64,000 nt of DNA from Ilex aquifolium. Lineage: Eukaryota > Streptophyta > Magnoliopsida > Aquifoliales > Aquifoliaceae. The translations under genes were made by a program, and so were the position numbers. The notes below the pieces were generated by a model that saw only the letters and a program-made list of their open reading frames with translations, was not told where the DNA came from and did not search any database. Below, in pieces: positions 4,017 to 64,000 of this stretch; within the stretch, counting starts at the first letter, position 1, and every line of letters begins with the position of its first letter. The stretch lies in assembly GCA_951799425.1 (NCBI GenBank), contig OX637395.1, positions 1,074,501 through 1,138,500 on the forward strand, read 5' to 3'.

Positions 4017-4059
<43 letters not shown>
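4008..4059. repeat. GA microsatellite in a 5' leader
   Basis: About 25 GA units, interrupted once by TA, lie just upstream of the glyoxalase-like start codon at 4081. GA/CT tracts in 5' leaders recur in this window, for example before the C2 genes and FCF1. The length is likely to be polymorphic. Confidence 0.9.
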
Positions 4060-4063
<4 letters not shown>

Positions 4064-4080
4064 GAGTATTGAAGAAGAAA

Positions 4081-6261
4081 ATGGCGGCATCGTTTAGGTG
4101 GATACTGCAACTGCACAAGGATGTGCCAAAAGCCGCAAGGTTCTACTCGGAGGGATTGGACTTCACCATCAATGTCTGTACTCTCCGTTGGGCCGAGCTC
4201 CAGTCCGGTCCCCTCAAACTCGCTCTCATGCACTCTTCCAGGTCTTTCTCTCGTTTATCTTCTCTGTACTGGGATTTACCTCTTTCAGTTAACGCTTTAG
4301 TAATTTTAATTTTCTTGGTTTTGATCTCACGTTTCAATGTGTTTTAGGCGAGAGATTAGAAATTCCAATCCATTCATTTCTCTGTATAACCATATGTGGG
4401 TCGATTATCTCTGTTCTGTGTTATCTAATCATGGGATCTATCGTAAATTTTTGCATTTTTTCACGTTTTTAGTCTTCAAATATGCTAGTTTCTGTATAGT
4501 GCCTTCCCAATTCATATCATATAGTGTCCACTGTCATGTCTTGTATCTGAACCCACCCTAAAGGGTCAAATTTCCATTGGTACGCAGCTGATGTATGATT
4601 GATCAGGACGATTTAAGTGGGGATTTAACTTCAAAAAAGTGGCTTGCCTGACATGGAAAGGCACCATGTCATACGTATCCAACACTTGACAGATAAAACA
4701 TCCAATTGGTTTGTGAAGGACGGACACAAAGAGATCTTATTGAGTTACTTTTTTGTTTTTTTTAAAACTAAAATTTAAACATATCTATATCAATGTTGGG
4801 GCAATTTTCTCTTCAAATCACATCAAGATGAATTTTGAAGGAGTAGGGAAGGCGGATTATGGTGGCATTAGTAGCATCAGTTTAAGTTTTCAGTTTTTCA
4901 TGCATAAGGGTGCCTTGATTTTTTGTTCTAATTAACTTATTGATGGGCTGACAGAGCAGTGACATCTTTATTATGCATATTGGTTTGAAGCTAAATTTGT
5001 TACTGAATATAATTAATGTCGGGGTACTGTTAATTTCAGCCCCAGATATGATGCTTGGGTAGACAGATGTAACGACTATATTATACACTTCTAAAACAAA
5101 ATATCTCTATCAAACCGTCCTTGTTTACAAGAATGCTAATGGGGAAATAGTTGCGATTAGATGATTCTTTGACAGACAGATGAAAAGTTTCTCCGATACA
5201 TATAGAATACCCACGCAGGCCATAGGTAAGATGTGACTGCCCTGACAGTGGCTCTAACAATCTACATGACTCTTCCTTATAGTTCATGGGGGAACCATGC
5301 GATCACACCTTACTCACCAGGGTATCAACCAATGTATCTTGTTTTTGAGAGCATCCAATACTTCAGGACAATTGAGCTTTTGTTTTGTAGTACCTTTCTA
5401 ATATTCTGGTTTGTGATTTTTTTACAGTATCTTTGCAAATTGTATATGATCCCCCTTCCCAAAAAATCAATTTATTGATACATTTTTAGATAACAATCTA
5501 TCTGGTCCAGTAGAGCAAAAAGCCAGAAATAGTATTAACTACAAAAGTTTTCGTGGCCTGTGGTTTTTTCTCAACCTTTCTCCTGAAGTTCGATTTATGT
5601 ATTGGCTTAAATTAAAATGAAAATGATGTTACATACTTACATTGCTCATACGTGGGAATGCTTTCTTTGGCTTCCTTTCTTGTTATGGAGGAATATGTTC
5701 TTGGAATTTATGATGCCATAGTTAGACAAACTTGAATGAAGGTGCTAACCATAGTTTTACAGTGATCAGGTCATGCAGAAAGGATACTCATCACTCCTAT
5801 CTTTTACGGTGACTGACATTAACAATACAGCAACAAAATTAATGGCTTTAGGTGCTGAGCTGGATGGTCCCATTAAACATGAGATCCATGGCAAGGTAAC
5901 AACCCAAACATTTATTTTTTCTGTTTGAGCAATTCCAAGGGTTGCCACTTACAATATTTGACTGCACTCTCTTGCCTCTAGTTATCATCCTTTGGGGCGA
6001 AAGATTGTATGTTTCTTAGAAAAAATGACAATCATTTCCAAGACAAAATGATGTCATGGTGTGGCTGCTAATTGCACAATGGTTGAAGAGTGCAGTTCTT
6101 GACTATGGGCTCCAGACTATGTGCTACATGTGATATCAAGTTTCAATCTTCTGTTTTTTTATCTGGAATTTCTATGAATGTCTCGCAATATGGTGGCTCT
6201 GCAGGTTGCAGCCATGAGGTGTGTTGATGGGCACATGTTAGGTCTTTACGAGCCAGCCTGA
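4081..6261 (+). CDS. Glyoxalase I-like (VOC superfamily) protein
   Basis: Three exons, 4081-4241, 5763-5895 and 6205-6261, give 351 nt or 116 residues. The junctions are CCAG/GTCTTT, TTTTACAG/TGATC, CAAG/GTAACA and CTGCAG/GTTGCA, and the phases match. The protein opens MAASFRWILQLHKDVPKAAR and contains RFYSEGLDF, WAELQSGPLKLALM, a central LLSFTVTDI and a C-terminal GHMLGLYEPA. These are the paired beta-alpha-beta modules of the vicinal-oxygen-chelate fold found in small plant 'lactoylglutathione lyase family' proteins. The usual plant family length is about 120-140 residues. The substrate is unknown; sequence alone does not show true glyoxalase I activity. The start is the first ATG after the GA leader. 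The gene is preceded by TGGGCC-type promoter motifs near 3945. Confidence 0.85.
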
Positions 6262-7636
6262 AAGTACCAAAAGAAGCATGTTGCCACCATACCAGCAAGG
6301 CAGCAGCCAAAAGAGGTGCATTGTTTCAGTATTCCTTATGGACAAGTGTATTTTGATGGACATGAAAGGCCATGAGAAATAAAATTTCCCCTATTTGGGT
6401 TGCATACATGCCACTGGGTGATTCTTTGTTACACACAGATCACCATAGGAACAGAGAGTTTGTAGGGTGTTGACCTTCAAATCTGCCAGCAGTTAGAGGA
6501 AGGTGCTGCAACAAGTGGCATTGGTGTGGCCATTATTTATCCAATGAGGATTATTGTATGTACAAAGAGAGAGAGTTTGGGTGGGTCCTCCATGAGTTCA
6601 AAAATATAATCAGAATTCATCTGAGAATGTTTTGATTTTGAGAGTGATCTTTGCAGTTATATTTTGAGTTTTGTATCAAATTTTACCTTAAATAACATCA
6701 GCCACTAAGTTGGGTCTGTAGCAGGATGGGGTGAGAGGGAAGGGACAGCTTCTTTCTCTTAAATCTAGAGTGAGAAATCTCTCCTACAGAAGTTTCATGG
6801 ATTTCATCATACTTTTTATTCAACTTCACTCAATAGTAAATCATTTATCGGGTATGGGTAAGAGACCCACTTAAAAATGGTGACCCTTATTTGAATTCAT
6901 GGTAGGGTGATAAACTATGGAGTGAAATTGAGTAAAAATATAATAGAGAGTATTCCCATCAAAGCTTCATGGCATATGCCCAAGTACTTTCGTAGCGATA
7001 TGTTTCTTGGGGTGACATAAATTTTTTTTGGGTGCATTTTATTAGATAGTAATAGTAATGGGAGAACATGGGTATGAATCGTCACAAATTTTATGCCACT
7101 TATTTATTGACCATTTCCTTTTTAAAATATATATATATATATAATGATCAAGAGGAATCCATTTTCAGTTCCTGATAGTCTAGTCTTATTCCATTTTCTT
7201 GAAGTTGATCAGGAGAATGATTAGCTGACACTGAATGCATCTTAATAGTATAGAACCTAATACCCAATCAAATGGTTATAAGGCCACCCAAGCATCCTTA
7301 CAAAAATGTCACTAAAGGGAAACCACTACTTCCTACAGCCATGATCTGATTCCACTTAGTTTTATCTATTTTGATACAGCCAATAATCTGTAAATTTAAA
7401 AGTAAAAGGTGTTCATGTCTGCACTAAATCACTATGCTAAGTATTTAGCCATGGTCTGCATAACCAATCAGTCACATTTAATCAAAGTGCTCATTAAGAT
7501 ATGTTAGAACACTACATTATAATTCCGTTCAATAATAAATCACTCATTTAACTAGCATGTCATTAATCCAATGATACTCTTTTACTTTATGAAAACTTGT
7601 CTTCTTAAAGTTAAGGGTTCAAGTCATCTGGACGAC
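6262..7636. other. 3' flank of glyoxalase gene; no further gene
   Basis: AT-rich sequence, probably including the 3' UTR to about 6.7 kb (T-rich and AATAAA-like stretches). There is a short (TA)n run at 7128-7143. No coding region, tRNA or clear transposon was recognised. Confidence 0.5.
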
Positions 7637-8281: not shown

Positions 8282-8289
8282 TATATAAG
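8282..8289 (+). promoter_or_regulatory. TATA box of the MIR159/319-like gene
   Basis: TATATAAG in a GC-richer context (GGCCTATATAAGGCC) lies about 120 bp upstream of the foldback base at 8409. It is followed by a C/T-rich leader. This is the arrangement expected for a pol II plant MIR promoter. Confidence 0.6.
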
Positions 8290-8408: not shown

Positions 8409-8621
8409 ATGGTGGTGGGAGGTTAACGGGAGCTCTCTGTCGCTCCAACTCCGAGAGGAAATGAGGGTAGACCACGGCTGCTGGTTCATGAATACCTTTG
8501 GACACGCAGCATAGCGTGTGGGCTTGCGCGGGCTAGGGGTGGGCATGAACCGGGAGCCGAGGTTACCTTGATCTTTTCTGGCTTGGGGTGAAGGGAGCTC
8601 CCATATGTTGTTTTCCATCAT
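8409..8621 (+). ncRNA. MIR159: miR159/miR319-family microRNA precursor
   Basis: The 3' arm at 8582-8602 contains GTGAAGGGAGCTCCC, the diagnostic core of miR159/miR319, preceded by CTTGGG. The 5' arm at 8428-8448 (GGGAGCTCTCTG...CTCCAA) pairs with it with few mismatches. A second duplex inside it pairs AGAGGAAATGAGGG (near 8454-8467) with CCTTGATCTTTTCT (near 8566-8579). An outer stem pairs ATGGTGG (8409-8415) with CCATCAT (8615-8621). A foldback of about 210 nt with the mature sequence near the base is typical of this family and unlike short miRNA hairpins. Against miR159c as I recall it, positions 1, 6, 7 and 21 differ. MiR159 represses GAMYB transcripts and miR319 represses TCP transcripts. 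The POB1/LRB gene lies 4.7 kb downstream, matching the Arabidopsis MIR159C-LRB1 neighbourhood from memory. Whether it is expressed cannot be seen. Confidence 0.78.
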
Positions 8622-11600
8622 CCTTCATTTTCTTCTTCTCCATGCTGGGTTGTGTTTGGGCATACACATAGTAACTAGTAACTCTGGTCCGGTGGGCCGT
8701 CTGGGGGGGGCAATGAGTCGAGTCCCAAGCTTACTTGACGGACCGCCTTCATGGGTCTTAAACGGCCCAGACTGTAAAGCCTGGAGGACCAAAATCATGA
8801 TCTTTGGACAGACTCATTGGGCTATTCGTATACCCGGGGCCATCATGAGGAGGGCCGAACCACAGAGCTAACGGGCCAGTCCTTGGGTCATAGACCATGT
8901 GCTGACCCCTAAAATAACCACCATAGTAGTGCTTGGTATTATTTTAACATGCATGATTGTTCCGGATTTTTGGTTCCTCTTTTGGCATGGTCAAGTTACT
9001 AGGGCTGATAATTGAGCCGAATTATTGGGGTTTGGTTCAGATAGGACTTGAACGAGCTGAGTCTGAATAATTTTTTAGATTTGTTCAGAAAACGAGCTTA
9101 AAAAACTCGGCTCGAGTTCATAAAATTTGACCCGTTTATATCTAAAACAGTGGAGCTACTCGGGCTTGACTCGTGCTCTAGACGAACTAAATTTGAACAA
9201 TTTTTTAGAATCGTTTAAAAAAACAAGCTCGATAGACTCACAAAGCTCAACTTGATTATCAGATAACCTTTAGCATTTAGACGACAAATAAACAAGGTCA
9301 ACTATTGGGTTCTAATGACCAGACCTGATAAATGCAAATTAGTTGATAACTTTCTATTTTCTTTATGCCACGGCTTAGATAAAGCCGGGAAAACTAGTAG
9401 TTATCTCAACGTGGGAAATATTAGAGCAGATCTTATTTTTTTTATTTTTGTGATTTAATCTCAAAAAATTATAATTTATAACTTTTTCGTATTAATATTT
9501 ATCACATAATTTATAATTTTTCGTCGGCTAATATCCTTGGCCTTGGGTACTATAATCTTATCCAAGTATAAGAACCACACCCGCCAATCCGACCACTGGA
9601 GCCCACGATCTCAATCTACTTTCAAACAGTTATGTCTATCTCCGATGTATAAAAAGGTAACATCATCCACAGTAAACAAGGTATGTTAACTGAGACTCCT
9701 TCCTATTACTTGCCTTTTTAGTAGATCCTGAATGGGTCTATTGTCCTTCTTATTATAGTCCTATTAGAATTAATGACATTTCATCAAAATACATGTTGTC
9801 TTTTCACCGCTGTAGTCTTATGCATAATCAATGTTTACCCAAATTCTAGGAGTTAATTTAAAATCACCTACTTGATTAACAGGCATAATTTTTATAACTG
9901 CTTTATTATCATGTCAAAATCCCCTCGAGCAACAATTAGGATTTCCTTCTTACTTTTCTTTCTTCTACAATTTTTTTTTTGCAGGCTTTGAGGAATCTTT
10001 CATTGGTGGATTAAATTTCGACATCAACAAAATTCAACTATCAAAACCCAAGAGTGGTCATATATATTTTTTTGTAAATGTAAAGGTGCCATTGAAGTAA
10101 AATTTTACGAATTGAAATGATATAATACCGCGAATGAAATGTCGGGATTCTACTTTCGATATCCTGCTAAGCCTTGGTTGTAATCTTGGACCGCTTCCAT
10201 TTAAAAAAAAAAAAAAAACCTCATGAGGTCTCGTTAGGCATGCCGTGTGGGACAAAATGAATGTTCTTTTTATTCTCAAATGGAATCAGTATTGATTTGG
10301 TCTCTTAGCCCATGATAAGGAGCTTCAAATATGACTTACCATTTTCTTAGTACCAGTCTTTTCTATTTTGGCCGACATGAGAGGGTGGTGGCTTTATGTG
10401 ATCATTTCTTCTTGTTGGATGGTCAAAGCATACCTAAGTATTGATATTCTTCAATTGATGCCCTAAATGTGAATGGTTGTTATGCCCTTTTGACTATTCC
10501 AATAAGATGGCCATCATCATGTTGTTGTGAGGTATAAAAAAGGATAAAAGATTTAATAATATGGCCCCCAAGAATTAATCAAATGATTAATATTAGCTCC
10601 CAATGGAATAATTCTAGCCCCATTAGCTTTGTATGATTGATAGTCTTTTTCTTTTTTTTTTGTTACTCGACGATTCGGAATGTTTAGGCCAACTTATGCA
10701 CACTTCAGACAGTTTTTTCAAATAATACTCACAAACTTTCTTGCTTTAATTTTGCAATACCATCAACCCATGTAACACTTTTTCGATAAATTGTAAATTG
10801 TCTAGATTGAACTAATTTGGTACTTGCAAGTGCTAGTCAATTTGAGATGTTAAATCACAAGTAAAACACACGACTCAAATTAACAAATAAATTTACTCGT
10901 GCTTGATAACTCAAGATATTAATCAGAGATACATGTCATACAAATAGACATGAATAATAATTCAAATAACGTGTCTTTATATTTATGACTATGAAGTGAA
11001 TTCCTATTGGATGGAATCAACCGTAATTCATGTATATCCGATGGATCGTGACTTGAACTTACAAATTCACATCTTCAACCCATTGTTTTTAATATATTTA
11101 TGTATTCACCTTCAATTGTTTTTGCAAAGTCTTTCTTTTGCTTGCACATGCTTGCACATAAAATAAACCCAAAAAAGTGGTCGATTTGGCCTAACTGTTT
11201 AAGAAAATAAGTTTGTACTGTACCAACACATAAGAAAACCAGGTCAATGATCAAGCACAATACCGCCCAAAAAGTGGATGATTCATTGGAGTTGACACTC
11301 TCATCTCATGAGGAAGAGGAAGTTGCATGAACATGGACATTTCTTGGAATTGACCTCCTCGAGGGTGCACAATTAACTATGAAAAATCTTAATTAGGCCT
11401 TTTTTTTTATTACAGTCAGGATGGTCCGAACCAATTTACACGTATCTTGATTTGATTCTTTCTTTAGTCTGATCAAAACTAAATTGTCTATACCAAAACT
11501 AAGAAATTCATGAATTAAGTTTTTTTTCAAAAATTATTTTAACCTTGACGACCCGAATACTCTCAATTTCAAGACTTCTAAAAAACGTTTACAGAGACAA

Positions 11601-13323
11601 TTGACCCGTTCTTATTAGTATTAAAACTTGTGGCCAGGGGCCATACGGCAGTCCAGGCCGAATTCTTGGCAGATAGGTATGACCCATGACTCGTCTTAGA
11701 AGTGGGTCGGACCGGCTATTACTCGAACAACAATGTTACACATATTATTTTTGTGCACCAATTCAATACATATGAACTATTAGACTAGTGAATTCTATTA
11801 AATTCATTGAATATTTGATGACTAAGATTATATTATATCAGGTGATGCACAAAAATGATACACATATCATTATTGTCACTCAAATTCATTTTAAAAGAGA
11901 AATTATAACTGTTCAAGGTATTTTCTCGAATAATTACAACTTTATATTACAAATGTATAAATTTTACTATTAAAAAATTATAATTTTCGATACGATAAGA
12001 TTTTTTTTTTTTGGTATTATAAACTTTCCCCTTTATAGTGCCGAGGCTGAAAAAGGTAGTGGCCTATTTGGGTCCCGTTTACCTGTATTATGTCTGTACC
12101 AAATACAAACAAAATCCAGATTACGGAGGATAACTATGCTGTTATTTCCCAAGTAAAATGATGATTTACAGTGGTTATGCCTACCATGGAAAAAAAAAAT
12201 CTATTTCAGGTAGCTTACCTGGATCTTGTCAAATACCAAATGGAAACAACATTACATACGATTACTATTTTGTTGTGGTGGAGTCAAAAGGCAAATTATA
12301 TTAATTGTCTTCAAGACTTATATTAATTGCACTTTGATCCCTAATGTTTGTGATATTTTACAGTTGATTCCCATTGACAAATAGATTTGATGGAAAGAGA
12401 TTTAAATGTACAATTTATCCTCTAGTCAAAATGAAATAAAACATGAACTTAAACCCAAAAGATGGAAAGAGCTCGTAAATACCTCTTTCAATCCCTTTGG
12501 TCTGCCCCCCACTCCCTACTTAGCACCAATAAATCGCACTATAGTGGCTACCAAAGAACCACTCCCCAACAATCTGGAACCGTAATAATATTTTATCTAA
12601 TATATATTTTTTATATTTTTATTTTTGATTCACTTTCCATCCCAAATTTAAATTAAATCAATTTTATATAAGTGAGTCACTGATTCATAAAATATGGGTC
12701 ATCTACTACAAAAAATATACAGGAGATCTGAATCTGTTGGAACCATGTACACCTCCCCGCAATCAACCAACACTCTATATGCTTTTTTATTTGCTTGAGA
12801 ACACTTTATATGCTATAATCATTTGAATCACCCTTACAACCTGGAACACCCCACTCCCTTGTCTGGGGGCGATAATTTTAACCAGGAAAGTGGTTTTTGA
12901 GAGAGGAGAGTAGCGGTGGCCAAATGAGAAAAAAAAAAGCACGACATATTTTCCCTTTTTCTTGTATTTTTTAATTTTTTTAATTCTTATAATTTTTACT
13001 ATTTGTTTCAAAATGGTGAATTGGGTATTTTATGAAAGATGTATGGGTGGATTCATAACTTCTGAAATCTGAAGGATTCGAGTGAAATAAATATAAAGTT
13101 TGGGGTAGTTCATGTAATTTATCTTTAGAAATTTATCATTGCTCGCCCTCATTAAACTCTGTCCAAAGACTCGCATCCAGATGCCCCCCCTCTCTCTCTC
13201 CCTCCCCACTACATTTCTGTAGCTGCCGAATCCTAGGGTTTTATACTTTTCTCCATTTTCGTGTTCTTCTTCTACATTGTTAGAGAGAGAACAACAAAGA
13301 GGTTCAAAGAGATAAGAATAGCA
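8622..13323. other. Long intergenic region, no protein gene recognised
   Basis: Sequence around 9000-9250 has repeated 'gagctcga/ctcgg' motifs of a dispersed repeat. Around 11640-11720 is a GC-richer island without a frame. Around 12290-12370 a segment (TTAATTGCACTTTGATCCC) resembles the terminus of the foldback MITE at 21.6 kb. The rest is AT-rich with short chance ORFs. The last 200 bp before 13324 are C/T-rich and probably belong to the POB1/LRB leader. Confidence 0.45.
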
Positions 13324-16300
13324 ATGAGAGATTCGAGTTTGGATCTATTTGACCCGAGAACGGCCGTGATGGACTCGGACTATTCGCCGAACGCTGGCCG
13401 AGACGCCGATTTTGGGTTTGCATTTAACGATAGCAACTTCTCCGACAGGGTTCTCCGGATCGAGATCATGGACGATTCTCCCGAGACCAGGTCCGATGGC
13501 GAGGGTTGTCAAAGCCTCGCCGATTGGGCCAGAAATCGGAAGCGAAGGAGAGAAGATATTAAAAAAGAAATTGGTTAGTGTTTTTAGGTGTCGTTTTGGT
13601 TATATGTGTATGTTGTTTTGGTGATTATTGACTTTGGGTATAGCTTTTGCTTGTTATTAGATTGTTTAACGATCATATATCGACTGAATGTTGTTATTTA
13701 TGTAGGGAAAGAAAATTCTGAATGTTGTAAAATGGAAATTATGGCTACATGACTTGACATAATGAAAAAAAATATTGCTCATTTGAGCCTAATTCAAGCT
13801 CCCCCCGGGGGGGGGGGGGGGGGGGGACTTTACTGAGTACATTGGGCGGGTGAGATAACCACATGTTCATGATCAAATACGGTATTCTCTAGTACTCCAT
13901 CCAAAATAGTATTCGATTGCTAGAGATTTGTGAAAAAGGGTTTCTCTTTAATTGGGCTTGTTAATTCTGTTGTGATCTTGCTCAGGGTATTACTCTCGGG
14001 GGGAAAAGTGTTGGTATGATTGAATTATGCAGTTTAAAATAGTATTTCCCCTAAATAAACAGAAAATTGATCTGAGCAACTATGAAATGGTAGGGATTTG
14101 TATGATGTGGAGTAGAACAACTCACCTGAAAATACATGTGGAGTAGAACATAATGCTTAGAATCAGGATAATAGACATGAAGTGAGTGAAATTCAGGAGT
14201 TAGTTTGGCTGGCAGAATGAACGTATCAATGTTGGTGGTTAAAATATGGTGTTCAATTGCTTCGGAGATTCTTATTTGGTACCTTTTATGAGGAATAAAT
14301 CAAGTCTAATATTTTTTGTTGTTTTAGGGTTCTTCATTATTTTTTCTTGAAGAAGGTAGTATTGTTCCTCATCATTTTTAGCTATTACTTGTGTTAGCTT
14401 CCCCAGTGAAGATGCATCATTGTTGCTAATAACGTTGCTAGTTTGGTGGAAGGTGGATTGTCAGCTAATATAAATAGCACAAAATCAGATACGAATGTTC
14501 TTAGCTGGTATATAAGCTGACTAGGGGTAACCCGTGTCTGAAGGCACGATGCAATGTAAATAATTTTGGGAGATGTTGGTGGCCGTTGGATGAGTCTATT
14601 TGAGACTATCAAATGAGCTTATTAAAGTTTGTCATGTTTTATATTATAGATGTTATCATTTAATAATATTTATTAAAAAGAACTGTGACATTGTATTGTT
14701 CTTTTATTTCTTTCTTGTGTTCCATTTTTGGACCTTAATTTATTATGATAATGGTTATTCATTATTGTTCTATATCTTGGTGTGGATTGCAAATTTGATT
14801 CCTTGATTGCAGGACAAATATTTGACGTGAATGTTTCCTTGTTGGAATGTTATGCATGTTGTTGTACACTTGCAGTTCTTTCTTATGTTAGAATGGGTTC
14901 TACTGACGTTAATAGACATTCACCATTCATTTGCAGCTTTGGATATCACTGTAGGTCCCGAAGAGCAAACCTTGAATTGTAACCTGCCTGATATTGATGA
15001 TATTGTGGGCTGTGAAAACCAGGATGAGGAAGCAGTTGCAATGATTGAAGAATCTCATTCAGGTCTTAGAATTATTTAAATTCAAAATTTTATGTCTTCC
15101 CTAAGCCCACAATGTGGAAGTAGATGTATAAACTCTAGAGTGGAAAATTCTTGATTTCCGTTTCTGTTCCACAAACTTCAAGACTTCATATTGCTTGTGT
15201 AGGGGATGAAGCTGCAAATAGCAATGATTCAAATTGGAGTATGGATTGTTCTACAGTCCTCAGAGTTAAAACATTACATATTAGCTCTCCAATTTTAGCT
15301 GCAAAAAGTCCATTTTTCTATAAGGTAGATTTTGCTTTTTCTTTTTCGTTTTCTGTATGTTGCTTTTTTGTATCTCTATAAAATTGGTGGATGACAACAT
15401 TCTTTCCTTGCAACTTATGTAGCTCTTCTCAAATGGGATGAGGGAGTCAGAGCAGCGACATGTAACCCTACGGATCAATGCCTCTGGTATGGATTAACAT
15501 TTCAAGCTACTTATTTTTAAGGATAGTATGTTTCTTTTGGTGGACATGCCAATTTTGGATCTGATTTTTTTTTTTTCATTTAGTCTCTTGAAGATGGTGG
15601 CATGTTTAATAGAAAACCATAAATATCTTAATTCTAGTACGTTAGTGTATATTTTTCTTGATAGTTATTTCACTGAAAAATGTCATCTTGCTCTACTCAC
15701 CTTATTGTAATTATCCTTTTCTTTTTCTGTGGAACAGAGGAAGCTGCCCTAATGGAGCTCCTTAATTTCATGTATAGCAATACCTTAACTGCATCTTCAG
15801 CCCCTGTTTTGTTGGATGTGCTGATGGCTGCTGACAAATTCGAGGTTGCTTCATGCATGAGGTATTGCAGTCGTCATTTGCGGAATTTGTCCATGTCACC
15901 TGAGTCTGCGTTGCTATATCTGGAGCTTCCTTCCAGCGTATTAATGGCCGAAGCAGTTCAGCCATTGACAGATGCAGCAAAGCTGTACCTGGCTGGCCGT
16001 TACAAGGACATAACCAAGTAAGTTTTTTGGTTCTTGTTTAGTCCATGGATACTACAATTTCCAGCAGATATTGGAAACCTAATCCTTCCTTAATTTGCAA
16101 ATTGTCCTTTTCAGGCAAGATGTTACTTCCTTAATTTATCCATCTTATTTTTTCATGCAATTTTCTGTGGTGCATTTTTTGTTTTTTCGGTTCATCTAGG
16201 CAGATGGACTTTGATATGTTTTCCTTAATCTTTTTAGTGGATAGGTGGGTTGGTTTTGTTTAGCGTATGCCCATGTCCAGTAGTCTAATCCGAGAGCATT

Positions 16301-17729
16301 TTAGTGTTATTATTCCATGAAAACTCATGACTTACCTTTCCGTAGAGGTCACATTTTGCTTTAATTTGAAAAATTGTCATACTTCATTTTTTGAGTCTTG
16401 ACAAGTTTCAAACCAACTTTGCTTGGCAGTCCTTGAGGCTTGTATCATCTTTTTACAGAATGCTAATACACATGAAGAAGGTCCAAACCTAATTACCTCG
16501 CTATTCTTTTAATTTTCTTCCAATGATTAGATGTGTCACTTATATGAATTTCATTTATTGAAAGCCACATGTCAAAATAGTTCGCATAGACATCCATCAT
16601 AACTTGTTTAGGTATGCATGCCTTGCAAGGAAGGTTTACCTTACACTCTTGGCTAGATGAAGACATGAAGTGGGATGTTGCGCCGTTCCCTATGTTTGAA
16701 TTGCACACCCATAATATTAGACATTCATATTAATCTCTTAGGTTTTTGTGGGGTTTAAACTTTTAAAGTGTCGTGATAGCATCAGTATTAACTCTTAAGA
16801 TCCTTAACAGAAAGGGTCAGTTGATCTTCATCTAAAGCCAAATAGTGTTTTATTGCCACGACTCCTAACCAGATGCTATTGATGCTTATATAGGATCCTT
16901 TTCTACTTTGGCCAGGTACCTAGATGAGGTTATGAGCTTGCCTCTAGCCGGAATTGAGGCGATTTTGGCAAGTGATGATCTCCAGGTGGCATCAGAGGAT
17001 GCAGTCTATGACTTTGTGTTAAAGTGGGCTAGGGCTCAATATCCAAAACTGGAGGAACGGCGGGAAATCCTGGGCTCACGTCTTGGTCGCTTCATCCGCT
17101 TTCCTTACATGACCTGTCGGAAGCTTAAGAAGGTTTTGACGTGCAATGACTTTGATCATGATCTTGCATCCAAGGTTGTGCTTGAGGCCCTATTTTTCAA
17201 GGCCGAGGCTCCACACCGACAGCGAACCCTGGCTGCAGAGGAGCCTGCCACCACGAACCGCCGCTTTGTGGAGCGGGCCTACAAGTATCGGCCTGTTAAG
17301 GTGGTTGAGTTCGAACTCCCACGTCAGCAGTGTGTGGTCTACCTAGATTTGAAGAGGGAGGAGTGTGCAAATCTGTTCCCATCTGGGCGGGTGTATTCTC
17401 AAGCATTCCACCTGGGCGGACAAGGTTTCTTTTTATCTGCACATTGCAACATGGACCAACAGAGCTCTTTTCATTGCTTCGGGCTGTTTTTGGGGATGCA
17501 GGAGAAGGGATCAGTGACTTTTGCGGTTGATTACGAATTTGCTGCAAGATCAAAGCCAACGGAGGAGTACATTAGCAAATACAAGGGCAACTACACTTTC
17601 ACGGGTGGTAAGGCTGTTGGCTACCGTAACTTATTTGCCATACCCTGGACATCATTCATGGCTGAGGACAGCCTTTACTTCATTAACGGTATACTCCATC
17701 TCAGGGCTGAACTCACCATCAGGCAGTGA
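13324..17729 (+). CDS. POB1: BTB/POZ-BACK protein, POB1/LRB type
   Basis: Six exons, 13324-13573, 14937-15062, 15203-15324, 15423-15486, 15738-16017 and 16916-17729, give 1656 nt (551 residues). All junctions are GT-AG and phase-consistent. The N-terminus starts [20 protein letters not shown] and carries an acidic stretch and the basic patch [10 protein letters not shown] near residue 75-85. A BTB fold covers about residues 140-255 ([38 protein letters not shown]). A BACK domain covers about 260-390 ([21 protein letters not shown]). A conserved C-terminal beta-rich region ends [11 protein letters not shown]1/LRB proteins are about 560 residues and serve as CUL3 substrate adaptors, implicated in phytochrome/PIF turnover and in restraining immunity. 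A frame continuing upstream to 13261 lacks an ATG, so 13324 is chosen as the start. Intron 1 holds a C6G20 tract and a Helitron end. Confidence 0.93.
13801..13826. repeat. C6-G20 homopolymer tract in POB1 intron 1
   Basis: Six C followed directly by twenty G. It can form a G-quadruplex or hairpin, and homopolymer length here is prone to sequencing and assembly error. It lies well inside intron 1, away from splice sites. Confidence 0.9.
14521..14560 (-). mobile_element. Helitron-like 3' terminus in POB1 intron 1
   Basis: On the minus strand the sequence reads CGTGCCTTCAGACACG, a near-perfect hairpin, followed by GGTTACCC and CTAG at 14524-14521. A short hairpin 8-12 nt before CTRR is the Helitron 3' signature. 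The matching 5' end was not found towards higher coordinates, so extent and completeness are unknown. Confidence 0.45.
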
Positions 17730-20320: not shown

Positions 20321-20596
20321 CAGTTACAATCACCCAAACCCGACACATCACTACTCCTCCACACAACCATCTCTATATCCAAGCATCCCTACTTACTTGA
20401 ACCTTTTGAAACCTCAAGACCACCCCAACACTCGTCATATAACGTAGCGAACTGTTTCCAGTTACAATCACCCACACCCGACACATCACTACTCCTCCAC
20501 ACAAACATCTCTACATCCAACCATCCCTTCTTACTCGAACCTTTTGAAACCTCAAGACCACCCGATGTTTTCAACTCGAGTATCCGTTCTTGTGTT
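20321..20596 (-). repeat. 138-bp direct internal duplication in C2 gene copy A
   Basis: The block beginning CAGTTACAATCACCCA at 20321 recurs at 20459, a period of 138 bp or exactly 46 codons. Both units encode the GGLEVSKGSSK...GWLD(V/I)EM segment. Copy B at 22.4 kb carries this segment once. The unit that lies downstream in the reading direction holds the premature TAG. Confidence 0.85.
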
Positions 20597-21033
20597 ACTT
20601 CTTGAATCTCCTTATCATCATCATCAAGATCAATGTCTTGAAACTCATTCTCAGTATCATATTTGACCTCCTCCTCAATACCATTCCTCAATTCCATGTA
20701 CTCGACTGGGGACAAAGACTTCACCTTGCATTCAGCTCTTCCCACTAAGGAGTCCGGGAAATATTTACGTTCCTGCAAGATCTCGAAATGACCCGTGGAG
20801 TTCTCGTCGGAGATAAAGGTGTTGGGAACGGAGAAAATAAACTTCTGGTTCCACACCGGCGGGTCGTAAACAATGATCCAACTGACTACCTTCATTTCAA
20901 GTTTTTGCTCTTGATTGATCCATACCCATATGTAAACGTTTCCAGCCCTTTTGAAATTCAATGTTGCAGATTTTAGTTCTACTCTCAATAACGTAGAGCT
21001 TCTGCCCGAAGAATAACATGATGCAGACACCAT
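20389..21033 (-). CDS. C2-domain protein, truncated tandem paralog (copy A)
   Basis: The ORF runs from ATG at 21033 to TAG at 20391-20389 (214 residues, no intron). Residues about 10-110 resemble a C2 domain: LLRVELKSATLNFKRAGNVY, VWINQEQKLEMKVVSWI, VWNQKFIFSVP, RKYFPDSLVGRAECKVK. An acidic linker and the segment KGWLDVEMFVWRSSDV follow. The frame then enters a 138-bp in-frame duplication and meets AAG-to-TAG. The conserved C-terminus seen in copy B (RVGRDTE...) is lost, and a further stop follows LYD. C2 domains typically bind membranes or Ca2+, but no complete set of Ca2+-binding aspartates is obvious here. The gene is probably decaying but could yield a shortened protein. Confidence 0.7.
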   Translation of the reverse strand: MVSASCYSSGRSSTLLRVELKSATLNFKRAGNVYIWVWINQEQKLEMKVVSWIIVYDPPVWNQKFIFSVPNTFISDENSTGHFEILQERKYFPDSLVGRAECKVKSLSPVEYMELRNGIEEEVKYDTENEFQDIDLDDDDKEIQEVTQERILELKTSGGLEVSKGSSKKGWLDVEMFVWRSSDVSGVGDCNWKQFATLYDECWGGLEVSKGSSK

Positions 21034-21580
21034 TGCTTCTCTCTTCCTCTCTCTCTCTATTTCTCTCCTGAATAACTTGAATGGTGATTTGTATTGTTTC
21101 TCTATACTTGACTGATGGTTGATGAGCTTGTAAATCCTAGATATATATAGGCCTTCTTATTCTATTCAAACCGTAACTGGGTTTCCTAGAACATAAAGGT
21201 TTTCTTAATTGTGTATACTTCTTTCTCAACTCGTTTAATATTACCTCTTCTAAGATTAGCTTTAGTTATTATTACCTTCACAACTCAAAAATCTCTAGGA
21301 TATAAATATCACTCTTTATATTGAGAGTTATTTAATAATGTAATGTTTATACAATCATTCAATACTCTATTTAAACAAAATATTGAATGGAATGTGAAGT
21401 TCACTATTTCTTAATACCTTAACAAAACATGAGATGAGAAGATATAAATTTTAAATTTGTCTTTCTTCTTCAGTTGGATGGGTGTGGAATGAATGAGGTT
21501 GTCCAATCTGATACATGCTAATACCTAATCCAAACACATTCCTAATTCCTTCTAGAATCATCTGAGATATATTACATTCT

Positions 21581-22384: not shown

Positions 22385-23065
22385 CTAGTTTTTGGTACAC
22401 ACAAAAAAACGATACTTCTTCCTCTTCATTATCTCAGTGTCCCTTCCAACTCTCATCATGAACTCGTCATATAACATAGCAAACCGTTTCCAGTTAGAAT
22501 CACCCACACTCGACACATCACTACTCCTCCACACAACCATCTCTACTTCCAACCATCCCTTCGTACTCGAACCTTTTGAAACCTCGAAACTACCCGATGC
22601 TTTCAACTCGGGTATCCGTTCTTCTTTGACTTCTTGAATCTCGTTGTAATCATCAAGATCAATGTCTTCAAACTCATTCTCAGTATCGTATTTAACCTCC
22701 TCCTCAATCCCGTTCCTCGATTCCATGTTCTCGGGTGGGAACAAAGACTTCACCTTGCATTCAGCTCTTCCCATTAAAGAGTCCGGGAAATATTTACGTT
22801 CCCGGAAGATCTCGAAACGAACCGTGGAGTTCTCGTCGGAGATAAAGGTGTTGGGAACGGAGAAAATAAACTTCTGGTTCCATACCGGCCGGTCGGAACC
22901 AACGATCCAACTTACCACCTTCGTTTCAAGTTTTTGCTCTTGATTAATCCATACCCTCATGTAAAAGTTTCCAGCCCTTTTGAAATTCAATGTTGCAGAC
23001 TTTAGTTCTACTGTCAATAGCGTAAAGTTTCTGCCCGGAGAAGAACATGACGATGCAGACGCCAT
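22385..23065 (-). CDS. C2-domain protein (copy B)
   Basis: A single-exon ORF of 226 residues starts MASASSCSSPGRNFTLLTVE and ends FFVCTKN. A C2-like beta sandwich spans about residues 12-115: ELKSATLNFKRAGNFYMRVW, ETKVVSWIVGSDRPVWNQKF, FSVPNTFISDENSTVRFEIF, RKYFPDSLMGRAECKVKSLF. The strand order resembles plant small C2 proteins of the SRC2/BAP group. An acidic region (NEFEDIDLDD), then GWLEVEMVVWRSSDV and a basic C-terminus (MKRKKYRF) follow. A CT-repeat leader precedes the start. The subfamily is assigned by general resemblance only; the ligand is unknown. It is the intact member of the tandem pair. Confidence 0.75.
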   Translation of the reverse strand: MASASSCSSPGRNFTLLTVELKSATLNFKRAGNFYMRVWINQEQKLETKVVSWIVGSDRPVWNQKFIFSVPNTFISDENSTVRFEIFRERKYFPDSLMGRAECKVKSLFPPENMESRNGIEEEVKYDTENEFEDIDLDDYNEIQEVKEERIPELKASGSFEVSKGSSTKGWLEVEMVVWRSSDVSSVGDSNWKRFAMLYDEFMMRVGRDTEIMKRKKYRFFVCTKN

Positions 23066-23277
23066 TGCTTCTCTCTCTCTCTCTCTCTCTCCTGAATAAC
23101 TTGAATGATGATTTGTTTTGTTTTGTCAACATAATCAATCCTAGATATATAGGCCTTCTTATTCTATTCAAATCCTAACTAGGTTTCCTAGAACATAAAG
23201 GTTTTCTTAATTGTGTTTACTTCTTTCTCTACTCGTTTAATGTTACTTTGGTCTAAGATTAGCTTTAGTTAATATTG

Positions 23278-29232: not shown

Positions 29233-31427
<2,195 letters not shown>

Positions 31428-37091: not shown

Positions 37092-37159
37092 GCGTTTGTA
37101 GCACAATGGATAGATCTGACTTAATATCAGTAAACCGGGTTCGACTCCCGGCAAACGCA
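37092..37159 (+). tRNA. tRNA-like relic, chimeric
   Basis: The acceptor stem GCGTTTG/CAAACGC, T arm CCGGGTTCGACTCCCGG and 3' A match the tRNA-Gly at 40.6 kb. The D and anticodon region (AGCACAATGGATAGATCTGA) instead resembles tRNA-Arg. It is 68 nt long, with a shortened, poorly paired anticodon arm. Pol III A-box (TAGCACAATGG) and B-box (GGTTCGACTCC) look intact. Probably not a functional tRNA but possibly transcribed. Confidence 0.45.
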
Positions 37160-38520: not shown

Positions 38521-39520
38521 GCTATATAATAAAGTAGTTTACAATTCAAATTTCAAAAGATAAACAAAATGACTTTTGCTTTTCGTGGTTCAGATCACTT
38601 TAAATTTTACTTTAAAGTTAATCTAACGGTTAATATTAACAGCTTATATTTAATAGGAAAAATAGGTCCCTAAGAGTGTGTTTGGAGTGATATTTTAAAA
38701 GTACTTTTAGAAATTATTTTTCATAAGTACTTTAAAAAAAAAATAGTGTTTGAAACCGCCTCACCACTACCTCTACCACCACCACCGCTGCCGCCATCAC
38801 CACCACCATTACCCTCGCCGCCACCACCATCACCACCACCGCCACAACCCCCACCACCGCCACCGCCACAACCCTCACCACCGCCACCACCACTACTGCA
38901 GCCATCGCCACCACCATCGCCGCCATCACCACCACCATTACCCCCGCCACCACCACCATCACCACCACCGCCACCGCCACAACCCTCACCACCACTGCCA
39001 CCACCACTACTGCAGCCATCGCCACCACTACCGCCACCATTACTACCGCCACCACCACCGCCGTCACCGCCACCACCACCATCGCTACTGTCGCCACTGT
39101 CGCCGTCGCCATCACCACTACTGTCGCCGTCGCCACCGCTGCCATTGCCACAGCCACCGCCACCACCACCACCGCCATTACCACCCCCACCGTCGCCACC
39201 CCCACAGCAACCACCACCGCCACCGCCTCCACCGCCGCCGCTGCCGCCGTCATTACCATCATCGTCACTCAAAACCCATCACCACCATCACCATTCCCAC
39301 CCACGACTGCTACCACCACCACGGTCATCGCCTTACCCACCACAACCATCACCGTCTCCCACCATCACCATTGTTGTCCACTACCGCTCATCCTCATTAC
39401 AATCGATACTTAAATTTATTTATCTCTCCTCTATGTTTGCGATTTGATTTTGGTGTGTGAATAGAAATATGTTGACATTTTTTTTATTACTCCGTGCCTT
39501 TAGGCACGGGAAATAAATAG
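38521..39520 (+). mobile_element. Non-autonomous Helitron-like element 3 of array
   Basis: Begins GCTATATAATAAAGTAG (TC changed to GC) directly after element 2. Ends with a perfect hairpin CGTGCC-TTTA-GGCACG, then GGAAATAAATAG (CTAG decayed to ATAG). Its interior CCA/CCG tract is expanded to about 650 bp, doubling the element's length against its relatives. Confidence 0.72.
38756..39412. repeat. CCA/CCG trinucleotide tract inside Helitron 3
   Basis: Imperfect CCA, CCG, TCA and CTG triplets with higher-order repeats. CCACTACTGCAGCCATCGCC appears twice (near 38890 and 39004). Long frames open in several phases (Pro-, His-, Gly-, Ala/Val-rich) are a by-product of triplet composition and not evidence of a protein. 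Confidence 0.9.
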
Positions 39521-40629: not shown

Positions 40630-40701
40630 GCGTTTGTAGTCCAACGGTTAGGATAATTGCCTTCCAAGCAATAGACCCGGGTTCGACTCCCGGCAAACGC
40701 A
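40630..40701 (+). tRNA. tRNA-Gly (UCC)
   Basis: A 72-nt cloverleaf. Acceptor stem GCGTTTG/CAAACGC is fully paired, the D arm carries AACGGTTAGGA, and the anticodon stem ATTGC/GCAAT has loop CTTCCAA (anticodon TCC at 40663-40665). The T arm is CCGGGTTCGACTCCCGG and the discriminator is A. Internal A- and B-boxes are intact and a T run follows. It reads the GGA glycine codon. Confidence 0.92.
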
Positions 40702-56533: not shown

Positions 56534-57877
56534 TCAGCCATGAGTGTTGACCGCTTCCCAAAGCAAGTTTTTCAGAACAGGGTTGGTGAGGTCCCGAGCC
56601 TGCAAGGCCGCGGCCCTGAGAGTCTTGATTGTCTGCACATTGGCCTCATAGAAGGAAAGACTCCTATACGGCAAATCATGCTTCTTGCATAGTTCCCTCA
56701 CAAAAGGAGAAACGTTTCTCAATTGGCACCGAGGCATCCGAGGGAACAAATGGTGCTCAAGCTGGAATTGCAACCCACCATAGAACCAATCCATCCAAGA
56801 GACGCATGAAATGTCAATCGTGCCACCCGCTTGTTTCTCGAACCAATCATTCCCCTTGGGGGGTCCAACATAAACATTGGCCGCGAAATGGTTCAAACAG
56901 AATTGAACATGTTGGATTGATGTAACACAAAAGCTTGCTAGCACAAACAACACCCTCTCTGTCCAATTGGGTAAGAATGAAACAAGAAGAGGAAACCAAG
57001 TCCAGAAAACAAGGATCCCAACAATGTTCAAAGCTCTATCGGGTACCTTTCTCTTGGAGAACAACAACAGGAAAGTCTGCAAATAAAGATTAAATCTCGC
57101 AACAACCATCACAGGATAAAAGGTTAGATGTTGATAACTCACAAAGAACCTAGACAATGGATCAAATGTCAACTCTCTTCCATAGAAAACGGATGTCAAT
57201 GAATGAAAGAGACGCGTAGAGACCGCAAAAACAGGCAAGTGTTGAAGGTCCGGATCATAATCAAGGCTATTGCAGGCAATGTGGTGGGCATTATGAGTCC
57301 ACTTCCACCAAGCAATGCTGATCCCAGTAAGGCAATTCCCAATAAGAATCTGGGCAACTCTGTTACATCCTCGAGTCATCATCGCTTGGTAATGCCCAGA
57401 ATCATGACCAAGATAAGCCACTTGAATCCAGGAAAACCCCAACAACCCACCACACAACATATGAATCCAGAAATTATCAGAATACAACACCCCATAAACA
57501 CATGTGAAGAGCATCAAAGCAACAAAACAAAGCGAATAGATCACACCATGTCCTTTCTTTTCGAAAAGCCCTGCTTTTGCAAACTCAGAAGCAAGTTTTC
57601 TATAATCCTTGGACACCTCCGAGATCTGAAAATCTTTCACATGATACCCAGTAAATAATTTATCAAGATATTGCCAAGCACTACCTGGATGGAAAGCAAT
57701 GAACGCATCAGTGACGTCCTGCCCAGCCAGATTCAGGAGTGGGATATCCCCACCCGGGTGTTCCTTAGACCAATTTGTGACATTGTAAACCTTGCCCTGG
57801 ATAGCAATCCACAGATCATCAGGCTTGTTGTGCTTCTTTAGCTCTTCAGTTGTAATGAACTTCTTTTCAACCGCCAT
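56534..57877 (-). CDS. SLD: Sphingolipid long-chain base delta-8 desaturase
   Basis: An intronless 447-residue ORF starting MAVEKKFITTEELKKHNKPD. An N-terminal cytochrome b5 domain has the heme motif HPGG at 40-43 and a second heme histidine at H63 (AFHPGS). A membrane desaturase domain follows, with histidine boxes HDSGH (158-162), HNAHH (195-199) and QLEHH (372-376). The third box starts with Q, as in front-end desaturases. Hydrophobic pairs lie near 112-155 and 255-330. The order b5-desaturase and the length match plant SLD proteins, which introduce the delta-8 double bond into the long-chain base of glucosylceramides and GIPCs in the ER. Absence of introns is also usual for SLD genes. Confusable only with b5-fused delta-6 fatty acid desaturases; without alignment the sphingolipid substrate is inferred from family resemblance and synteny. 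Confidence 0.92.
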   Translation of the reverse strand: MAVEKKFITTEELKKHNKPDDLWIAIQGKVYNVTNWSKEHPGGDIPLLNLAGQDVTDAFIAFHPGSAWQYLDKLFTGYHVKDFQISEVSKDYRKLASEFAKAGLFEKKGHGVIYSLCFVALMLFTCVYGVLYSDNFWIHMLCGGLLGFSWIQVAYLGHDSGHYQAMMTRGCNRVAQILIGNCLTGISIAWWKWTHNAHHIACNSLDYDPDLQHLPVFAVSTRLFHSLTSVFYGRELTFDPLSRFFVSYQHLTFYPVMVVARFNLYLQTFLLLFSKRKVPDRALNIVGILVFWTWFPLLVSFLPNWTERVLFVLASFCVTSIQHVQFCLNHFAANVYVGPPKGNDWFEKQAGGTIDISCVSWMDWFYGGLQFQLEHHLFPRMPRCQLRNVSPFVRELCKKHDLPYRSLSFYEANVQTIKTLRAAALQARDLTNPVLKNLLWEAVNTHG

Positions 57878-57958
57878 TGAATTAAACAGATCTCAGAGAG
57901 AGAGAAAGAGGTGAATATCCAGAAGATTTTGGATTCAAACAAACACCAACCTCTTGAA

Positions 57959-62981: not shown

Positions 62982-62984
62982 CTA

Positions 62985-64000
<1,016 letters not shown>

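Follow-up and report, generated by a model that had tools for sequence, protein, structure and literature searches.

Closest described systems

The closest described counterpart of the locus reported here is MIR159c of Arabidopsis, numbered At2g46255, with LRB1 at AT2G46260; the adjacency of the two had been put forward in a sequence-only reading of the holly DNA, and the locus tags agree with it. MIR159c has been described as a gene with very weak expression and poor processing that the plant can do without, and it has been called obsolete (PMC2988730). Our locus lies in a 64,000-nucleotide stretch of Ilex aquifolium DNA (the window) and resembles MIR159c in being a MIR159 foldback beside an LRB gene, a likeness that rests on locus numbers. 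The two differ in that weak expression marks the Arabidopsis gene, whereas the holly gene has GG in its seed and a very stable stem. The MIR159c seed is the canonical AU.

Sub-functionalization of variant miR159 isoforms is described as a possibility in a 2019 review (PMC6724108), and the window locus offers a concrete, testable case. Isoforms with AG at mature positions 6 and 7 are in print for grape (MIR159A/B), carrot, P. euphratica, and the orchid Dendrobium (miR159f), the last of which also has a G6 form, miR159h. The grape isoforms, CUUGGAGUGAAGGGAGCUCUC, are like the window miRNA in their 5′ C, their G at position 7, and their core and unlike it in having A at position 6 and UC at the end; they have a count of 0 in a leaf sequencing table, and miR159a differs in root on a microarray. 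For the P. euphratica relative with G7, miR159c, the table of a review gives a degradome target that is a MYB (PMC8438446), while for the carrot isoform TCP targets are predicted at a weak expectation of 5 (PMC12980029). In poplar degradome data, the targets given for ptc-miR159e and ptc-miR159f are all non-MYB and of category III (PMC3630063), and GAMYB is therefore not to be taken for granted as the target of a variant. Related literature includes PMC4977689, PMC4773123, PMC12157825, PMC2831844, PMC9320484, PMC8042123, PMC3900917, and PMC6627750. A strict literature search on subfunctionalization of variant miR159 returned nothing.

The foldback and its mature arm

8409 to 8621, forward strand: the whole MIR159-family foldback, from the covariance-model match and the fold
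8582 to 8602, forward strand: predicted mature miRNA, CTTGGGGTGAAGGGAGCTCCC, in the register of the family (alternative, 8583 to 8603)
8587 to 8588, forward strand: GG at mature positions 6 and 7, read from the sequence
8430 to 8451, forward strand: predicted star strand, placed by a 2-nt overhang, with one bulged G at 8439
8282 to 8288, forward strand: TATATAA, a likely TATA box, about 120 to 130 bases 5′ of the foldback

The hairpin at 8409 to 8621 is a genuine MIR159-family foldback. The Rfam MIR159 model (RF00638) covers 8418 to 8614 with a score of 106.4 bits against a cut-off of 74 (E = 3.1e-22), and the minimum free energy, −121.3 kcal/mol, was equaled by none of 200 shuffled sequences (z = −9.0). 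The foldback is long, its inner and outer stems are both paired, and the core UGAAGGGAGCUC lies on its 3′ arm. These results bear out the sequence-only reading, which had described a long, well-paired miR159/319-family foldback with an altered GG seed and a TATA box upstream; it had put the star strand near 8428, close to where the overhang would place it.

Twenty of the 21 mature-arm bases are paired in the fold, G6 in a wobble with U8444 and G7 in a full pair with C8443. Positions 6 and 7 are AU in miR159 and AC in miR319; AU, the mark of MIR159 identity, is thus replaced by GG at the window locus. Exchanging GG for AU destabilized the precursor by 5.6 kcal/mol (−115.7 versus −121.3), and the star strand therefore fits G7. 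The window locus preserves TGAAGGGAGCTC, the 12-nt core found at the canonical loci, although outside the core the precursor is 58 to 64% identical to 5 of the 13 relatives compared. A mature 5′ end at 8583 (U) is as compatible as one at 8582 (C); AGO1 usually prefers a 5′ U, and the 8582-8602 register begins with C.

The MIR159/319 family in the genome

Genome-wide searches covered the 800-Mb assembly in its 103 contigs. With both strands included, RF00638 gave 27 rows, which fall at 14 places; GG at positions 6 and 7 occurs at the window locus only. The better-strand score passes the cut-off at 13 of these places. The exception is a copy on C6 (57.9; E = 2.6e-9), which is identified by its mature core and by the gene next to it, since matches below the cut-off also arose in 7 of 14 control genomes. 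Twelve places match the mature pattern exactly (eight miR319, three GAMYB target sites on the reverse strand, and the GG sequence of the window), and six more match it with one mismatch. The relatives that matter most below are as follows:

C13:30523580 and C14:9948141: canonical miR159, UUUGGAUUGAAGGGAGCUCUA
C6:41596031-41596217: altered copy with the canonical AU seed and a damaged core, GCACTA
C17:22809199: altered MIR319-like hairpin, mature core GGGATCTCC, very stable
C20:19108276: altered MIR319-like hairpin, mature core GGGTTCCC

When the precursors at the 14 places were folded one at a time in sense orientation, the window foldback had the lowest energy (−121.1) and the C17 hairpin came next at −115.7. 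Stability alone is no proof of function, because the C17 hairpin, with its altered core, is nearly as stable. The canonical miR159 of this genome shares family and GAMYB sites with the window miRNA and differs in its AU at positions 6 and 7; the eight exact miR319 places share the core and the CTCC end and have AC.

GAMYB and related targets

How the two altered bases affect targeting depends on the base that they face, and only a comparison with the base really present in the target can tell whether a seed change weakens pairing. In the GAMYB site, miRNA position 7 faces the first base of a leucine or phenylalanine codon: among the best 120 of 7,453 proteins, the site peptide is ELPSLQ in 80 and ELPSFQ in 40, and tomato GAMYB1 has ELPSLQ. 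We scored targets at 20 loci scanned of 85 places. One GAMYB exon of this genome encodes 341 residues that share 96% identity with a protein of Ilex paraguariensis. Position 7 faces C in the GAMYB genes on C4 and C19 and U in the one on C6. The U7 of ordinary miR159 is consequently mismatched at all three sites, whereas G7 would pair fully at two and wobble at the third; G6 would wobble with U at all three. The sequence-only reading had expected both Gs to form wobbles and GAMYB targeting perhaps to survive in weakened form, an expectation that we reject because position 7 would pair or wobble at each of the three GAMYB sites.

Predicted penalties and energies largely favor GG. The GG form scores 3.0 and −38.9 at the C4 site (ordinary miR159, 3.5 and −32.1), 3.0 and −39.1 at the C19 site (4.5 and −32.1), and 4.0 and −36.4 at the C6 site (3.5 and −32.7, where the penalty is worse for GG). 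Its energy is thus better at all three sites and its penalty at two, although part of the energy gain is due to position 20 and not to GG. The predicted scores of 3.0, 3.0, and 4.0 lie within the high complementarity that GAMYB regulation calls for, and the 8583-8603 register gives a penalty of 3.0 at each site. On published sites, where GG was compared with the same RNA carrying AU, GG was stronger by 5.3 kcal/mol at the rice GAMYB site and by 2.2 kcal/mol at the MYB104 site, while an AG version exceeded GG by 0.9 to 1.0 kcal/mol, which is the cost of G6. G7 therefore gains pairing, and G6 costs little.

Other sites would be lost. An ELPSIQ site occurs in two genes, one on C10 and one on C4, and in both the base opposite position 7 is A, so that canonical miR159 is matched at this position there, unlike in GAMYB; the GG form scores 7.0 and −25.1 on them against 3.0 and −30.3 for ordinary miR159, so that both are predicted to drop out as its targets. 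The same holds for the Arabidopsis DUO1 site (8.0 versus 3.5) and MYB101 site (7.5 versus 2.5). A TCP-type pattern has one exact match in the genome (C2:46430902) and eight with one mismatch, with five for the reversed control.

We propose, with moderate confidence, that the window holds a MIR159-family gene with an intact foldback, the GG product of which would silence GAMYB at least about as well as ordinary miR159 while losing other target types. The foldback would be processed like other MIR159/319 foldbacks and its product loaded on AGO1, and the likely 21-nt product would cleave or silence GAMYB mRNAs with an efficiency close to or above that of ordinary miR159. Sites with A opposite position 7 (ELPSIQ, DUO1, and MYB101 types) or with G there (TCP type) would be released. 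On these predictions the gene most likely still serves GAMYB, more selectively. A single genome here combines the GG variant with canonical miR159 and miR319, and it also has three GAMYB sites in which the key base varies and ELPSIQ genes by which the isoforms should be separable.

The C6 duplicate and the age of the seed change

4048 to 6505, forward strand: stretch with a glyoxalase-like gene, a tentative name (Pfam Glyoxalase, 14.5 bits, below the 20.6 cut-off)
8478 to 8499, forward strand: inner 5′ stem segment, with 21 of 22 bases common to the C6 duplicate

The only second copy of 4048 to 6505 in which both ends match lies at C6:41596608-41599107; the remaining matches (8 of 11) are 88- to 128-base pieces of its middle. 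The altered C6 hairpin is about 390 bases from this copy, in the same place as the hairpin of the window, with its orientation flipped relative to the gene. No LRB exons were found in the sequence around it, which was examined for about 11 kb in one direction and about 12 kb in the other, less 1.3 kb of the latter. An Ilex-specific genome duplication has been reported from yerba mate (2n = 40; PMC11709435) and from I. latifolia (20 pseudochromosomes; PMC9441949). A segmental duplication, plausibly part of this event, would have produced the window gene and the canonical-seed copy on C6, after which the C6 copy would have decayed while the window copy was retained and changed. The AU seed of the C6 duplicate suggests, by parsimony, that GG arose after the duplication. 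A narrower account, which we consider rather doubtful, is that an LRB-linked MIR159 copy was re-tuned after duplication to a third state, GG, and became a GAMYB specialist that pairs fully where ordinary miR159 puts up with a mismatch and that dropped DUO1-, MYB101-, and TCP-type sites as its twin decayed.

The opposite order is possible, with G7 older than the duplication, given the AG isoforms of other plants. A seed with G7, or perhaps GG, might then be of old date and merely have persisted at this locus instead of arising in holly, and would silence GAMYB as its relatives do. This is a tentative possibility to which the grape, carrot, poplar, and orchid AG forms and the G6 form of Dendrobium lend weight; against it, the C6 duplicate and both canonical loci carry AU, and the GG core was not found in the main text of 5.39 million open-access papers. 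A Populus trichocarpa entry in miRBase presumably carries GG, in which case GG would not be unique.

Possible selection on the fold

Arabidopsis MIR159c is itself the precedent for another fate, that of a silent or nearly silent relic whose foldback persists with scant transcription and no biological effect. Such a fate could be imagined for the window gene because canonical miR159 is encoded twice elsewhere (C13 and C14), which may make this copy dispensable, and because the core of the C6 duplicate is already broken. The fold argues otherwise. Simulated unselected change at 20 to 40% of sites, in 100 runs each, left a canonical MIR159 foldback of this genome at mean energies between −60 and −52, and for the window foldback the means lay between −74 and −61, far less stable than the roughly −121 observed, which suggests that the stem has been kept or strengthened; judged by the fold, neutral drift of this hairpin looks unlikely. 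The 12-nt core is likewise preserved. The TATATAA near the window foldback, with none within 600 bases upstream of the C6 copy, points the same way, though weakly, since the sole TATATAA at the canonical C13 locus is 558 bases off. We therefore regard a relic as unlikely and keep to a maintained gene that would act on GAMYB.

The LRB neighborhood

13237 to 17729, forward strand: LRB/POB1-type BTB-BACK gene, approximate extent

The POB1/LRB gene noted downstream in the sequence-only reading is present on the same strand, with a BTB exon within 15677 to 16018 and a BACK exon within 16869 to 17726, both above the Pfam cut-offs; a putative 5′ exon near 13.3 kb, which has no Pfam match, was read from the translation. 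The genome holds three LRB matches (the window, C13:32028264, and C2:5902636), and each has a MIR159/319 hairpin at most about 20 kb upstream. Those on C13 (32013874 to 32014054) and C2 (5882354 to 5882537) are MIR319 hairpins, 14 and 20 kb upstream on the opposite strand. By a simple calculation, only about 0.001 hairpins would be expected within 20 kb of these two LRB loci, and linkage of the MIR159/319 family to LRB therefore looks old. The MIR159C-like neighborhood that had been claimed for the locus is thus real but not diagnostic: because two LRB paralogues lie near MIR319, an LRB neighbor alone does not identify MIR159C. The presence of hairpins at all three LRB genes may be the trace of an ancestral cluster.

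Farther along the window, an open delta-8 sphingolipid desaturase-like gene lies on the reverse strand at 56534 to 57892. Arabidopsis SLD2 is At2g46210, numerically close to At2g46255 and AT2G46260, which fits conserved gene order.

MIR159 or MIR319

Could the locus be a MIR319 gene with two changed bases, perhaps acting on TCP genes? Its mature 3′ end, CTCCC, resembles miR319, its mature arm is identical to the C13 MIR319 at 19 of 21 positions and to the C13 MIR159 at 16 of 21, and the LRB paralogues have MIR319 nearby. The precursor trees, one with all 14 places and the others lacking one to three rows, place the window locus moderately on the MIR159 side. With all 14 rows it groups with the C6 copy and canonical MIR159 (support 77/81). 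Without C6 it groups with canonical MIR159 at 84/89, and a MIR319 row from C14 (C14_319) joins the group; without three rows the support is 86/90, and without C14_319 and C20, two long rows, it is 94/95. When the canonical MIR159 rows were left out, the window and C6 paired at 97/95. The tree evidence is moderate because the branches are long; most miR319 precursors form a separate group, with C14:14756541 unplaced. All four trees that contain canonical MIR159 nonetheless keep the window locus with it, away from the main MIR319 groups, and a TCP-type site ending in CAGTCCAA would meet GG with a G:U and a G:G at positions 6 and 7. We consider MIR319 identity very unlikely and favor an assignment to MIR159.

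The search for new targets

That the altered seed might open new targets had also been suggested, and the genome-wide search at up to three mismatches found none that convinces. The perfect complement matched 15 places, against 19 for the reversed-pattern control, so this threshold, which could also miss wobble-rich sites, is noisy. Ten of the 15 fall on the strand complementary to a MIR mature arm (one being the locus itself), two are GAMYB, and three are others. We rejected a strong new target: of the five non-MIR places, two are GAMYB, two coincide with retrotransposon-like frames in sense or antisense, and one scores 5. A miRNA re-aimed at a new, non-MYB target is extremely unlikely, its best candidate, C3:28182509 (score 3.5, with C opposite both Gs), being antisense to a reading frame labeled retrotransposon-like from its translation and the other two non-MYB sites scoring 5 and 6.

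Other features of the window

The GC-rich segment at 8640 to 8960 was considered as a repeat and rejected, its sole match being itself. A CAC-rich long repeat at 38762 to 39236 is open in several frames and likely noncoding. A weak tRNA match on the forward strand (37092 to 37159; 37.6 bits) shares its ends with the tRNA-Gly at 40630 to 40701 and is perhaps a decayed copy. A tandem pair of C2-domain genes lies on the reverse strand (20389 to 21156 and 22385 to 23125), and two genes or parts of genes of glycosyl hydrolase family 18 (class III chitinase-like) lie at 30435 to 31427 on the forward strand and at 62982 to 63641 on the reverse strand.
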